Of a stretch of 64,000 nucleotides of DNA, positions 2,374 through 31,629 are shown one piece after another. A program made the position numbers and the translations under genes. The DNA comes from Stenocarpella maydis. Taxonomy: Eukaryota; Ascomycota; Sordariomycetes; Diaporthales; Diaporthaceae. Each line of letters starts with the position of its first letter. Position 1 is the stretch's first letter. The notes beneath the pieces are model-generated. The model was not told where the DNA came from. It did no database searches and saw nothing but the letters and a program-made list of their open reading frames with translations. The stretch is taken from the NCBI GenBank assembly GCA_002270565.1, contig NQMI01000019.1:434001-498000 (forward strand), in the 5' to 3' direction.

Positions 2374-4268
2374 AAGAACGCTCAGCAGGCTGACATCAGT
2401 GGCTTGTTCCGAGTCCACTGCTTCTTCCAAGAGGATGGGTATGAGCTCTGAGCCTGTATTCAGCTGACTTCGTCTGAGCCGGGGGCTGTCCGATCAGTGC
2501 CGGAGACACGACACGACGCTGAAGGCTCACACAGCTCACGGCGTACCGTGAGTCTTCCCTTCCAAGCAGCTCAGGTCTCTTTTGCGCTCTAGTTGCATGT
2601 ACCCCGCAGACCTTTCGCAATTGTGCGGATATTTAGAAATTGCCGACGTCAAGGCGTTTGGTTCCTAGACGGCCAGCTACATCGCCGTGCGTCTTCCGGT
2701 TCATCTCGCTCATGAGCAACGGAACCGTCTCAGACTGCGTGGGGATTTAACAATCCTCACTATGTTGGAAGGAAATTCATATCGCCGTCTTCTCGTGCGG
2801 AAGCGGCCGAGAGTTACTACCGGTACCGAGGGTCGACCACCAAGCTGCTTAAGGAAGTGGGACTATATCCAGAAAGCGTGTTCGCAGCGCCCCTGGCTTG
2901 CAAGTCATCCTGACTGGCAGATGGTTTGGTTCTATAGGTGTGAGGTTGAAATACGTTTTGTGGTCTTCAATTCCAATGCGCACATCACGAGAAGCGCTCC
3001 GGACTGGCGCCCTCCTTCGGTGATCTACTGTGATCCGCAGGTCGCGTTTTGGTCGCGGCTTAACTGACGCCGAAGCGCTGGAATCATGTCGAACTGGTGG
3101 TTACATATTATCAGAAGTAGATGAAAACCAATCACAAGAAGTCTTCTTTGTCGACTGCCTTATCATCCTCCCATTCGCCACCCCGAGAACGATTCCTGCA
3201 TTTCAGACGTGTACTCGAATGCTGTAATTGGCAACCCAACTGCACATTTCCGGCCTACCTTATGTCCAGTGCCCCGGATGGCTTGGGAACTCCGGCAACA
3301 ACGGGCGTGGAGTACCCCAGCATGTGTACTCGGCCCAGGAAGCCGAGTCATTCGTGGAAGGGCTGCGAGCGATGTCCTATTCCTGGTTGCTGGACAAGTG
3401 TTGTATGGAGTGGTATATAGTCTAAGTGCGTGTTGGCTGCAACTGGCTCGTCCAACGGGTGCTTCTTGACCAATGAATGTGTCTGAATCGGGAGCCCTGT
3501 GCAGCTGGTTGAATCCTTCCTTATGGTGCGCCGCAGGGCTGACTTTCCAAAAACCCCTTGTCACCCTAGGGTCACACCCAGCTGTAACCACTTCTACACA
3601 CCCCTCCACACCCCTACATAGCTAATAATTTAATATTTACATCTATAATCAAACGCTAAGTCTTTAGAACCATATAAACCTCTATAGAGTGGTCAGCCAA
3701 TCAGAGAGCTAAAAAGCCCAAGTGCCTTACTTATTACAGCAACAAAGCCTATTTCTAGCCCATTAGACCTTCCCTTCCCTCCTTCCCACCAACCACCTAC
3801 CAACACCCCAAACGGTACATACTATATAGCCCTACACAATACTCTACGCTACCTATAACTATAATCAATCAATTCAAAATAATCATAACTATATATTTAT
3901 CTCTGATGAATTGTGCTATAAAATAGCATTCAGTTCAGTGTGTGTGTTTCGGCAGGGTCGCAGTATGGTGCTCTGAGGCGAATTGGGACGATTAACAATG
4001 GTCTGGACAACTTTGTATTGAATTAAGTTTGGGCTTCTGTAAGCCCTCCTTATATACCCTCCGACGTCGTCTCACCCCTGGGCACGCTGCGGTAGGCTCT
4101 GGTGCAAATTTGCAAATGCCGGAAAATTCGCCCTTCCAACACACCATCTTTGGTTCCAAGCAACCAGCCAACCATGGCCCTAGCAATGCCCAAATTAAGT
4201 ACATATAAACTTCAGAAATCAAGCTATCCAATGCACTAAGTTATATACTTTTTGGGTAAGAAATAAGG
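2374..4268. other. gene-free stretch left of the assembly gap, partly AT-rich repeat relic
   Basis: No convincing gene. 3600-3910 is AT-rich and shares the string AGCCAATCAGAG and a similar following layout (ACCAACCACCTA, CCTATAACTA) with the left subterminal part of the Mutator-like element near 10340-10490. It may be a truncated relative. 3905-4268 has a different composition, with a short minus ORF that matches nothing I know. Confidence 0.4.
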
Positions 4269-4274
4269 NNNNNN
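4269..4274. other. assembly gap (6 N)
   Basis: Six undetermined bases separate ordinary sequence from a telomeric array. The array orientation suggests this gap joins two contigs rather than marking a few unread bases. Confidence 0.95.
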
Positions 4275-4460
4275 CCCTAATCCTAACCCTAACCCTAACC
4301 CTAACCCTAACCCTAACCCTAACCCTAACCCTAACCCTAACCCTAACCCTAACCCTAACCCTAACCCTAACCCTAACCCTAACCCTAACCCTAACCCTAA
4401 CCCTAACCCTAACCCTAACCCTAACCCTAACCCTAACCCTAACCCTAACCCTAACCCTGA
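4275..4460 (+). repeat. telomeric repeat array (CCCTAA)31
   Basis: Thirty-one tandem hexamers of CCCTAA, the complement of the TTAGGG telomere repeat. The second unit is TCCTAA and the last is CCCTGA; the rest are perfect. Reading CCCTAA rightwards on the plus strand is the arrangement expected at the left end of a chromosome, so sequence to the right should be subtelomeric, as its transposon content suggests. Confidence 0.97.
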
Positions 4461-30744: not shown

Positions 30745-30750
30745 AAAAAA
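30745..30750 (-). terminator. RNA polymerase III terminator (T6)
   Basis: Six T on the minus strand, 25 nt after the tRNA 3' end. A second T6 lies at 30732-30737. T runs of this kind end Pol III transcripts. Confidence 0.7.
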
Positions 30751-30774: not shown

Positions 30775-30919
30775 GGGTCTGGCCGGGGATTGAACCCGGG
30801 ACTACATGACCGTTAGTTATGGTGTGAAGACCCAAAGACGGAACAGAAGCAGCTTACCCTCGCGCAAACTGCTTTAGGGTGCACCCTAAGCGCGAATCAT
30901 ACCACTAGACCACCAGACC
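30775..30919 (-). tRNA. tRNA-Pro(AGG) with a canonical intron and a second, spliceosomal-like insertion
   Basis: Minus strand. Acceptor stem GGTCTGG (30919-30913) pairs fully with CCAGACC (30782-30776); the discriminator is C at 30775. The A-box region GGTCTAGTGG and D arm match tRNA-Pro. The anticodon stem CGCGC/GCGCG is perfect, with the loop beginning TTAGGG and anticodon AGG at 30887-30885. A 17-nt intron at 30883-30867 follows position 37, the canonical site; its CCCTAA can pair with the anticodon loop, as tRNA introns do. The T arm is CCGGG-TTCAATC-CCCGG. The variable loop AGG|TC is split by 56 nt at 30857-30802 that start GTAAGC, hold CTAAC and end TAG. Without both inserts the RNA is 72 nt with every stem intact and a 5-nt variable loop. 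Confidence 0.85.
30802..30857 (-). other. 56-nt spliceosomal-intron-like insertion in the tRNA variable loop
   Basis: Donor GTAAGC at 30857, branch-like AACTAACG with CTAAC at 30816-30812, acceptor ATGTAG ending at 30802. The branch A lies 11 nt before the end, normal for short fungal introns. Excision at exactly GT...AG yields a canonical AGGTC variable loop. No bulge-helix-bulge pairing was evident at its borders, which argues against removal by the tRNA endonuclease. Confidence 0.7.
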
Positions 30920-31629
30920 AGCGAATCGGATTGAGATGGGGCGAAATCTGGGGCATTATATTGTCACATTTTTTTCAGAGAAATGCACAAACGCTAACTT
31001 GTCAATTGGTTACACCTCATCGTTCCCATTCGTAATCTTGCCCATTCGATACGTGCTTACCTTCGTCTCTGAAACCATGCTAGTGCACCGAACTGGCTTG
31101 AATTGCCGCTCGTACGTTCACCATGAAGATCATCTGTTAACTTTGCAACTCCCAGTCCTTGTTTGTAACACTACAGCTTGCGAAGACAGAAAACCAAATT
31201 TGGACGAAACTGCTTGGAGGAAATTCCAGATTCGATTTCATGTTGAAATGGGCTGGCAGGTGAGCCGGATAGAAACAAGTCAAACCTGTCGTTATATACG
31301 AAGCATGTGTGTTAATCCAACCCGGCCGAGAGGTGTCTTACAGCTGCGTATCCTACACTAGGTAGGTATCATAAGGAAGGCCACACTGCATTGAGGTACT
31401 TCACACGGTGATATTTCAGTGAAGGGGATATTGGTTGAGTTCATTCGAATATTGGCGGCACTAATATGTAATGGACAGCACACACATTTCCAATCTGTAC
31501 AGCGTATGGCTAGACATGTCACGATCCAGGCCATAATCGGATGAGTTTCCATGCTTAGGCACATCAAAATAAGGCCCCGCAGTAGCTCGTCACAGGGCAC
31601 CTCGTGCCCTCTCAGCTCTGTTCTCCAAA
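30920..31629. other. intergenic
   Basis: No gene supported. A 141-codon plus ORF at 30936-31361 has no recognisable domain. Confidence 0.45.

Follow-up and report, generated by a model that had tools for sequence, protein, structure and literature searches.

The window, the whole stretch of 64,000 nucleotides that was analysed, contains a tRNA-Pro(AGG) gene on its reverse strand that is interrupted twice (Table 1). The first interruption is a canonical tRNA intron, in which CCCTAA is complementary to TTAGGG of the anticodon loop. The second is an insert in the variable loop with the signals of a spliceosomal intron. A sequence-only reading of the window had described this 56 nt insert with its GTAAGC, CTAAC and TAG, and re-reading the sequence bore out both the coordinates and the letters; the insert edge is ambiguous by 1 nt, the preceding G being the same as the last G of the insert. 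The claim that a 72 nt tRNA results when both inserts are excised also held. In this mature tRNA the pairs of the acceptor, anticodon and T stems and the three D pairs that were checked are all standard, with one G-T among them, and the variable loop is AGGTC. When the insert was excised in silico, a check proposed in the same reading, ARAGORN (introns allowed) recovered the gene as tRNA-Pro(agg) with a 17 nt intron. With this setting the unspliced gene is misread as tRNA-Leu(tag), and no match was obtained from the raw window with ARAGORN (bacterial setting) or with Rfam at its cut-offs. The internal A and B boxes start 116 nt apart because the two introns lie between them.

Table 1. Features of the tRNA-Pro(AGG) gene and its immediate surroundings, in window positions
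Feature	Position	Strand	Description
tRNA-Pro(AGG) gene, two introns	30775..30919	-	145 nt; mature tRNA 72 nt; exons 36 + 9 + 27 nt
tRNA exon 1	30884..30919	-	36 nt; ends with the G 3' of the anticodon (position 37)
Canonical tRNA intron after position 37	30867..30883	-	17 nt; ARAGORN i(38,17)
tRNA exon 2	30858..30866	-	9 nt; 3' anticodon stem and variable-loop AGG
Spliceosomal-type insert in variable loop, between AGG and TC	30802..30857	-	56 nt; 3' end GTAG
Donor-like GTAAGC	30852..30857	-	from sequence
Branch-site-like CTAAC	30812..30816	-	branch A at 30813, 11 nt before insert end
Acceptor-like TAG	30802..30804	-	from sequence
tRNA exon 3	30775..30801	-	27 nt; variable-loop TC, T arm and 3' acceptor stem
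Internal Pol III A box (TGGTCTAGTGG)	30902..30912	-	from sequence; by box consensus
Internal Pol III B box (GGTTCAATCCC)	30786..30796	-	from sequence; by box consensus
TATAAT	30955..30960	-	about 40 nt upstream of the gene
T6 run, Pol III terminator-like	30745..30750	-	24 nt 3' of the gene

The genome (53.5 Mb in 312 contigs) was searched with patterns for the T arm and the D arm of tRNA-Pro, and the matches were then read; the search was mechanical and the assembly may be incomplete. Seven tRNA-Pro places were found, with AGG genes at C2, C56, C93, C100 (the window) and C310, a CGG gene at C200 and a TGG gene at C111. The C56 and C100 places are identical across the 3 kb compared, and a 601 bp piece 32 kb from the tRNA is also identical in both contigs at the matching offset. 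On these identities they are most likely a single locus that the assembly contains twice, in contigs that overlap. The start of C56 and the end of C100 (C56:28811-28937 and C100:464786-464912) appear to be one unmerged region, with an overlap of about 94 kb by extrapolation. Counting C56 and C100 once, the distinct loci are four AGG, one CGG and one TGG.

A variable-loop insert is present in all five distinct AGG and CGG genes, that is, for two of the three proline anticodons. Each of these genes also has an intron at 37/38, of 17-29 nt. The TGG gene has no insert in the variable loop and only a 10 nt anticodon intron. Comparison with the other AGG copies, likewise proposed in the sequence-only reading, thus gave inserts of different sequence with the same splice signals in every other AGG copy found, and in the CGG gene as well.

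The inserts are 53, 56, 57, 54 and 57 nt long. All five have GTAAGT or GTAAGC, which fits GTRNGY, precisely where the 5' exon ends, CTAAC (matching CTRAY) as branch site with 11 nt following the branch A each time, and CAG or TAG as acceptor. In 400,000 shuffles made of each insert, the combination of a GTAAG start, a CTAAC 5-25 nt from the end and a YAG end never arose. The arrangement GTAAG..CTAAC..YAG, found in five of five genes, is far more than chance would give. When the cores that lie between donor and branch site were compared in ten pairs, a shuffle fraction below 0.05 was obtained only once (0.046), the others ranging from 0.058 to 0.362. As judged from these comparisons, the splice signals are kept while the remainder of the insert drifts. 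A fixed hairpin of the kind expected for a long, class II-like variable arm was rejected, as none of the inserts folds clearly better than shuffles (z -0.24 to +2.22). A pairing of AAGCAG with CTGCTT between the anticodon intron and the donor region of the insert, seen by eye in the window gene, was absent by eye in the other genes and was dropped.

The insert of C93:1762-1891 (-) is located 2 nt downstream of the position in the other four genes, between AGGTC and CCGGG, and its excision gives the same tRNA. The anticodon introns of C93 and C310 are 89% identical, while the cores of their variable-loop inserts are no closer than shuffles (0.188). Because the anticodon intron is near that of C310 and the insert core is not, it is possible that the C93 insert has moved (intron sliding), been replaced or been gained independently. 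The upstream flanks (300 bp) of the five loci were shuffle-like in eight of ten pairs, the exceptions being C2-C93 and C310-C93. In the downstream flanks (300 bp) six of ten pairs outscored at least 95% of shuffles, and these are not fully independent by score. The downstream similarity plausibly comes from T-rich tracts after the genes, though common descent may also contribute.

The tRNA itself is constant. The mature 72 nt sequence is identical at the four AGG loci, which are on four contigs, and the mature CGG tRNA has a fully paired cloverleaf that differs from it in 5 of 72 positions. The differences are found in the anticodon, in the acceptor stem (a double change from T-A to C-G), in the anticodon stem (G-C to G-T) and at position 16; two of the five make up the acceptor-stem change, which is compensatory. 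No mismatched stem pair was found among the pairs checked, and this, together with the identity of the mature tRNA at four loci and the kept splice signals, is not the pattern of pseudogenes. By sequence the genes have what is expected of a functional tRNA-Pro gene: a full cloverleaf with a proline anticodon, A and B boxes and a T-run terminator.

The insert is situated away from 37/38 and the genes have a separate intron at 37/38. The bulge-helix-bulge geometry comprises a central helix of 4 bp, in which intron nucleotides 2-5 pair with nucleotides 2-5 of the 3' exon. At the variable-loop junctions of all five inserts only one or two of the four pairs of this helix are available, in either register. 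The tRNA endonuclease is therefore an unlikely cutter of the variable loop, since the central helix cannot form at the junctions; a cut through a bulge-helix-bulge was what the sequence-only reading had named as evidence against its proposal. The letters that are conserved are precisely the donor, the branch site and the acceptor, which to our knowledge the tRNA endonuclease does not read, and no insert is clearly more stable in folding than its shuffles. All this speaks against an ectopic tRNA intron of the kind known from Cyanidioschyzon and the Guillardia nucleomorph, with the tRNA splicing endonuclease as its cutter and GT-AG letters that are incidental. We regard such an origin as very unlikely, even though these genes already have an endonuclease-type intron at 37/38 and, according to passages of two papers (PMC4090602, PMC3978253), ectopic tRNA introns are known in some algae and many of those in Guillardia are without a defined bulge-helix-bulge.

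The inserts can be compared with the mRNA introns of the same genome. A scan of the window that joined open reading frames gave ten intron candidates, and none in the reversed-sequence control; with stricter thresholds one candidate was obtained. A scan for intron motifs alone was uninformative in the window (two found against 1.1 in shuffles; 74 against 90.5 when relaxed). The six candidates that we judged clearest have the donors GTATGT, GTGAGT, GTACGT or GTGGGT and the branch sites CTAAC, CTGAC or CTAAT, with 12-18 nt to the end, the corresponding range for all ten being 7-22 nt. From these sequences the mRNA intron candidates of the window and the variable-loop inserts have one and the same layout of signals. 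Counting against a spliceosomal intron, the GTAAG donor of the inserts is found in none of the ten, and the fixed 11 nt after the branch A is tighter than the spacing among them. The intron of the Gtr1 gene in the window, read by eye, starts with GTAAGT and ends with CAG.

The Gtr1 open reading frame is 92% identical to the protein of Diaporthe amygdali, 90% to that of D. helianthi and 91% to that of D. australafricana among named proteins, and the next named genus after Diaporthe is Cytospora with 84% (among the best 120 of 275 matches). These identities place the window in a Diaporthe-like ascomycete.

The best match to U1 snRNA, at C44:118826-118990 (-), has 38.5 bits and is under the Rfam cut-off of 69.5. 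The 5' end of this U1-like match is ATACTTACCT, which by eye is complementary to GGTAAGTAT.

A and B boxes are present in all five distinct AGG/CGG genes, as are T6-T10 runs 8-24 nt downstream, and each of the seven tRNA-Pro places has a TATA-like motif within -33 to -61. With internal boxes, an upstream TATA and terminal T runs, transcription by Pol III would be the natural reading. The longest T run within the inserts is 4 nt; this TTTT, in the C2 insert, could weaken the passage of Pol III. Splicing by the spliceosome is as a rule coupled to Pol II, and on that ground the inserts could be spliceosomal introns of Pol II transcripts, for example from read-through or a host gene, instead of Pol III precursors. 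The promoter elements and T runs of all five genes, and the shortness of the T runs inside the inserts, make this extremely unlikely, and so does a further observation, that the same kind of intron is found here in U6, which is a Pol III transcript.

Six matches to U6 RNA were found in the genome, two of them above the Rfam cut-off. The copy at C167:53947-54101 (-), with 53.9 bits, is interrupted by 56 nt of the form GTAGTA..CTGAC..TAG, in which the branch A is followed by 11 nt; the interruption separates GAT from TAGCATGG in the conserved core. This intron holds AGTTCAACTC, by eye a B-box-like stretch. Another copy, at C301:645429-645585 (+), has 39.4 bits, below the cut-off, and a changed core; it looks decayed. 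It has a 48 nt mRNA-type insert, also between GAT and TAGCATGG, with CTAAG, 6 nt following its A, and by eye again a B-box-like stretch inside. A third copy, on C1 with 54.2 bits, has no intron and a changed core. Judging by their titles, one paper reportedly deals with B-box-like sequences within the U6 introns of Schizosaccharomyces, and Canzler et al. 2016 with multiple U6 intron insertions in fungi. With an intron of the same type in a U6 gene of this genome, it is plausible that the spliceosome excises introns from Pol III transcripts in this fungus.

It is our reading from the sequences, held with high confidence, that the inserts are nuclear GT-AG spliceosomal introns in tRNA genes that are transcribed by Pol III and also need the tRNA endonuclease. 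Making these AGG and CGG tRNAs would then probably take two different splicing machines. The sequence-only reading had left open whether the window gene needs both the endonuclease and the spliceosome or is silenced by the insert, and the genome-wide comparison of sequences strongly favours the former. In the proposed pathway, Pol III, directed by the internal A and B boxes together with the upstream TATA, would transcribe the entire unit as far as the T run. In the insert, GUAAGY would pair with U1 and CUAAC with U2, and the spliceosome would excise these 53-57 nt, probably as the first step and still in the nucleus, by which the tRNA fold would be restored. The tRNA endonuclease and ligase would then excise the anticodon-loop intron of 17-29 nt. 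The spliceosome is placed first because, according to part of PMC4090602, the endonuclease takes the body of the tRNA as the reference for its measuring, and the insert should disturb that body.

Several searches of the assembly bear on whether AGG or CGG genes without an insert are present. The D-arm pattern with at most three mismatches gave 28 places (control pattern 39), among which there was no insert-free AGG or CGG gene; the seven places with at most one mismatch were all tRNA-Pro. ARAGORN reported, besides tRNA-Pro, only one tRNA-Gly at all 28 loci, in a scan in which it misses or miscalls the insert-bearing proline genes themselves. A pattern for the joined variable loop with at most two mismatches matched 26 places, none exactly (control pattern 68), and no tRNA was found at the 12 of these that were examined (ten by ARAGORN and the D-arm pattern, three by direct reading, one place being shared). 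Another joined pattern matched the TGG gene only, which says little, as it demands AGAGG and would pass over a gene whose stem, like that in the AGG genes, is GCGCGAGG. In the genome search with the Rfam tRNA model 63 of 1343 candidates were scored and gave 57 matches; the TGG gene was not among these, so that absence from them is uninformative. A pattern for the same insert type in other tRNAs, CTAAC..AG shortly before a B box, matched seven places against six for the control, a count that is meaningless by itself. Six of the seven are tRNA-Pro places. The seventh was rejected: it is a tRNA of ordinary build with no intron, by eye similar to tRNA-Glu, in which CTAAC is part of the D arm.

In viral contigs neither the tRNA-Pro pattern nor a pattern spanning the insert gave any match. 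In genome contigs the tRNA-Pro pattern gave one match, an ordinary tRNA-Pro(TGG) that lacks the insert and has the features of a nuclear eukaryotic gene. It lies at approximately 4243-4315 (+) of a contig in a bacterial metagenome bin (Haloplasmataceae) and is probably due to contamination of the bin by eukaryotic DNA.

As every AGG and CGG gene found has an insert, the AGG and CGG tRNAs would depend on the spliceosome. Intact AGG genes that supply the cell, which the sequence-only reading had listed as counting against its proposal, did not turn up in the assembly as searched, though the insert-free TGG gene does exist. The presence of this gene on C111, together with the ability of yeast tRNA-Pro(UGG) to read all four proline codons, would allow the AGG and CGG genes to be dead or silenced, with the TGG tRNA reading every proline codon. 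Such a state is hard to reconcile with four AGG loci, each on a contig of its own, that have kept an identical 72 nt tRNA along with both internal boxes, the T runs and the splice signals, with the compensatory stem change in the CGG gene, or with the use of CCU and CCC for 104 of 235 proline codons in nine open reading frames of the window, and we consider it highly doubtful. Given this codon use, the AGG and CGG tRNAs matter unless the TGG tRNA reads all. The latter might be the case, so the AGG and CGG genes need not be essential. That the whole supply of tRNA-Pro(IGG) and tRNA-Pro(CGG) requires both the pre-mRNA spliceosome and the tRNA endonuclease is, from the sequences found, a reasonably likely outcome, held with less assurance than the nature of the introns.

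Introns of nuclear tRNAs and of mRNAs are usually seen as separate worlds with separate enzymes. If the supply of the AGG and CGG tRNAs does require both machines, this would be the first case of nuclear tRNAs being processed by the two splicing systems together, and the decoding of CCU, CCC and CCG would be coupled to the capacity of the spliceosome. A tRNA with one intron of each type would show the spliceosome acting on Pol III precursors beyond U6, and such genes would show the invasion of a short, structured RNA by introns. The variable-loop introns would have been repeatedly gained, moved or replaced with the tRNA itself fixed. They would also offer a natural system for asking in which order the two machines act and how proline decoding fares under splicing stress. 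Fungal tRNA sets may be incompletely annotated, because ARAGORN miscalled or missed all five genes in unspliced form and the Rfam tRNA model left the window copy unreported at its cut-off. ARAGORN still gave C310, with only the anticodon intron excised, as a 70 nt tRNA-Pro(agg) that extends into the insert, which counts against the spliceosomal reading.

Searches of the open-licence PMC literature gave no paper that by its title or abstract deals with a spliceosomal intron in a tRNA, and as far as those searches go the finding is without direct precedent; an earlier description elsewhere is possible. In the portions of the papers that were available, nuclear tRNA introns are said to be exclusively at 37/38, with exceptions discussed in the same paper (PMC3978253), and eukaryotic tRNA genes to be limited to one intron (tRNAscan-SE 2.0 paper, PMC8450103). 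The ordinary 37/38 intron is present in each of the five genes, and the variable-loop insert differs from it in both place and type. The exceptions to 37/38, from nucleomorphs and a red alga, are treated in terms of the endonuclease in the part seen of PMC4090602. As far as these sources go, the tRNAs of the Guillardia nucleomorph and of Cyanidioschyzon merolae resemble the present genes in being interrupted away from 37/38, sometimes by more than one intron, with the cloverleaf restored by excision, and the archaeon Thermofilum pendens has, by the title of a paper, an intron in the variable loop of a tRNA. The introns of these three are described there as linked to the endonuclease, many through a bulge-helix-bulge, whereas here none can form and the signals of mRNA introns are conserved.

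Closer likenesses in splice signals are found outside tRNAs. In fungal U3 snoRNA genes the introns are of the normal spliceosomal kind according to an excerpt of PMC5832005, which gives direct evidence for two species. These genes share ordinary splice signals in an independently transcribed small RNA gene; the host there is a snoRNA, here a tRNA. The U6 gene of fission yeast has an mRNA-type intron near the catalytic nucleotides, as given in a passage of PMC10484740, and is alike in having splice sites and a branch site in a noncoding RNA transcribed by Pol III. The host here is a tRNA and not an RNA of the spliceosome, and there are five different inserts in one isoacceptor group, each alongside an endonuclease-type intron.
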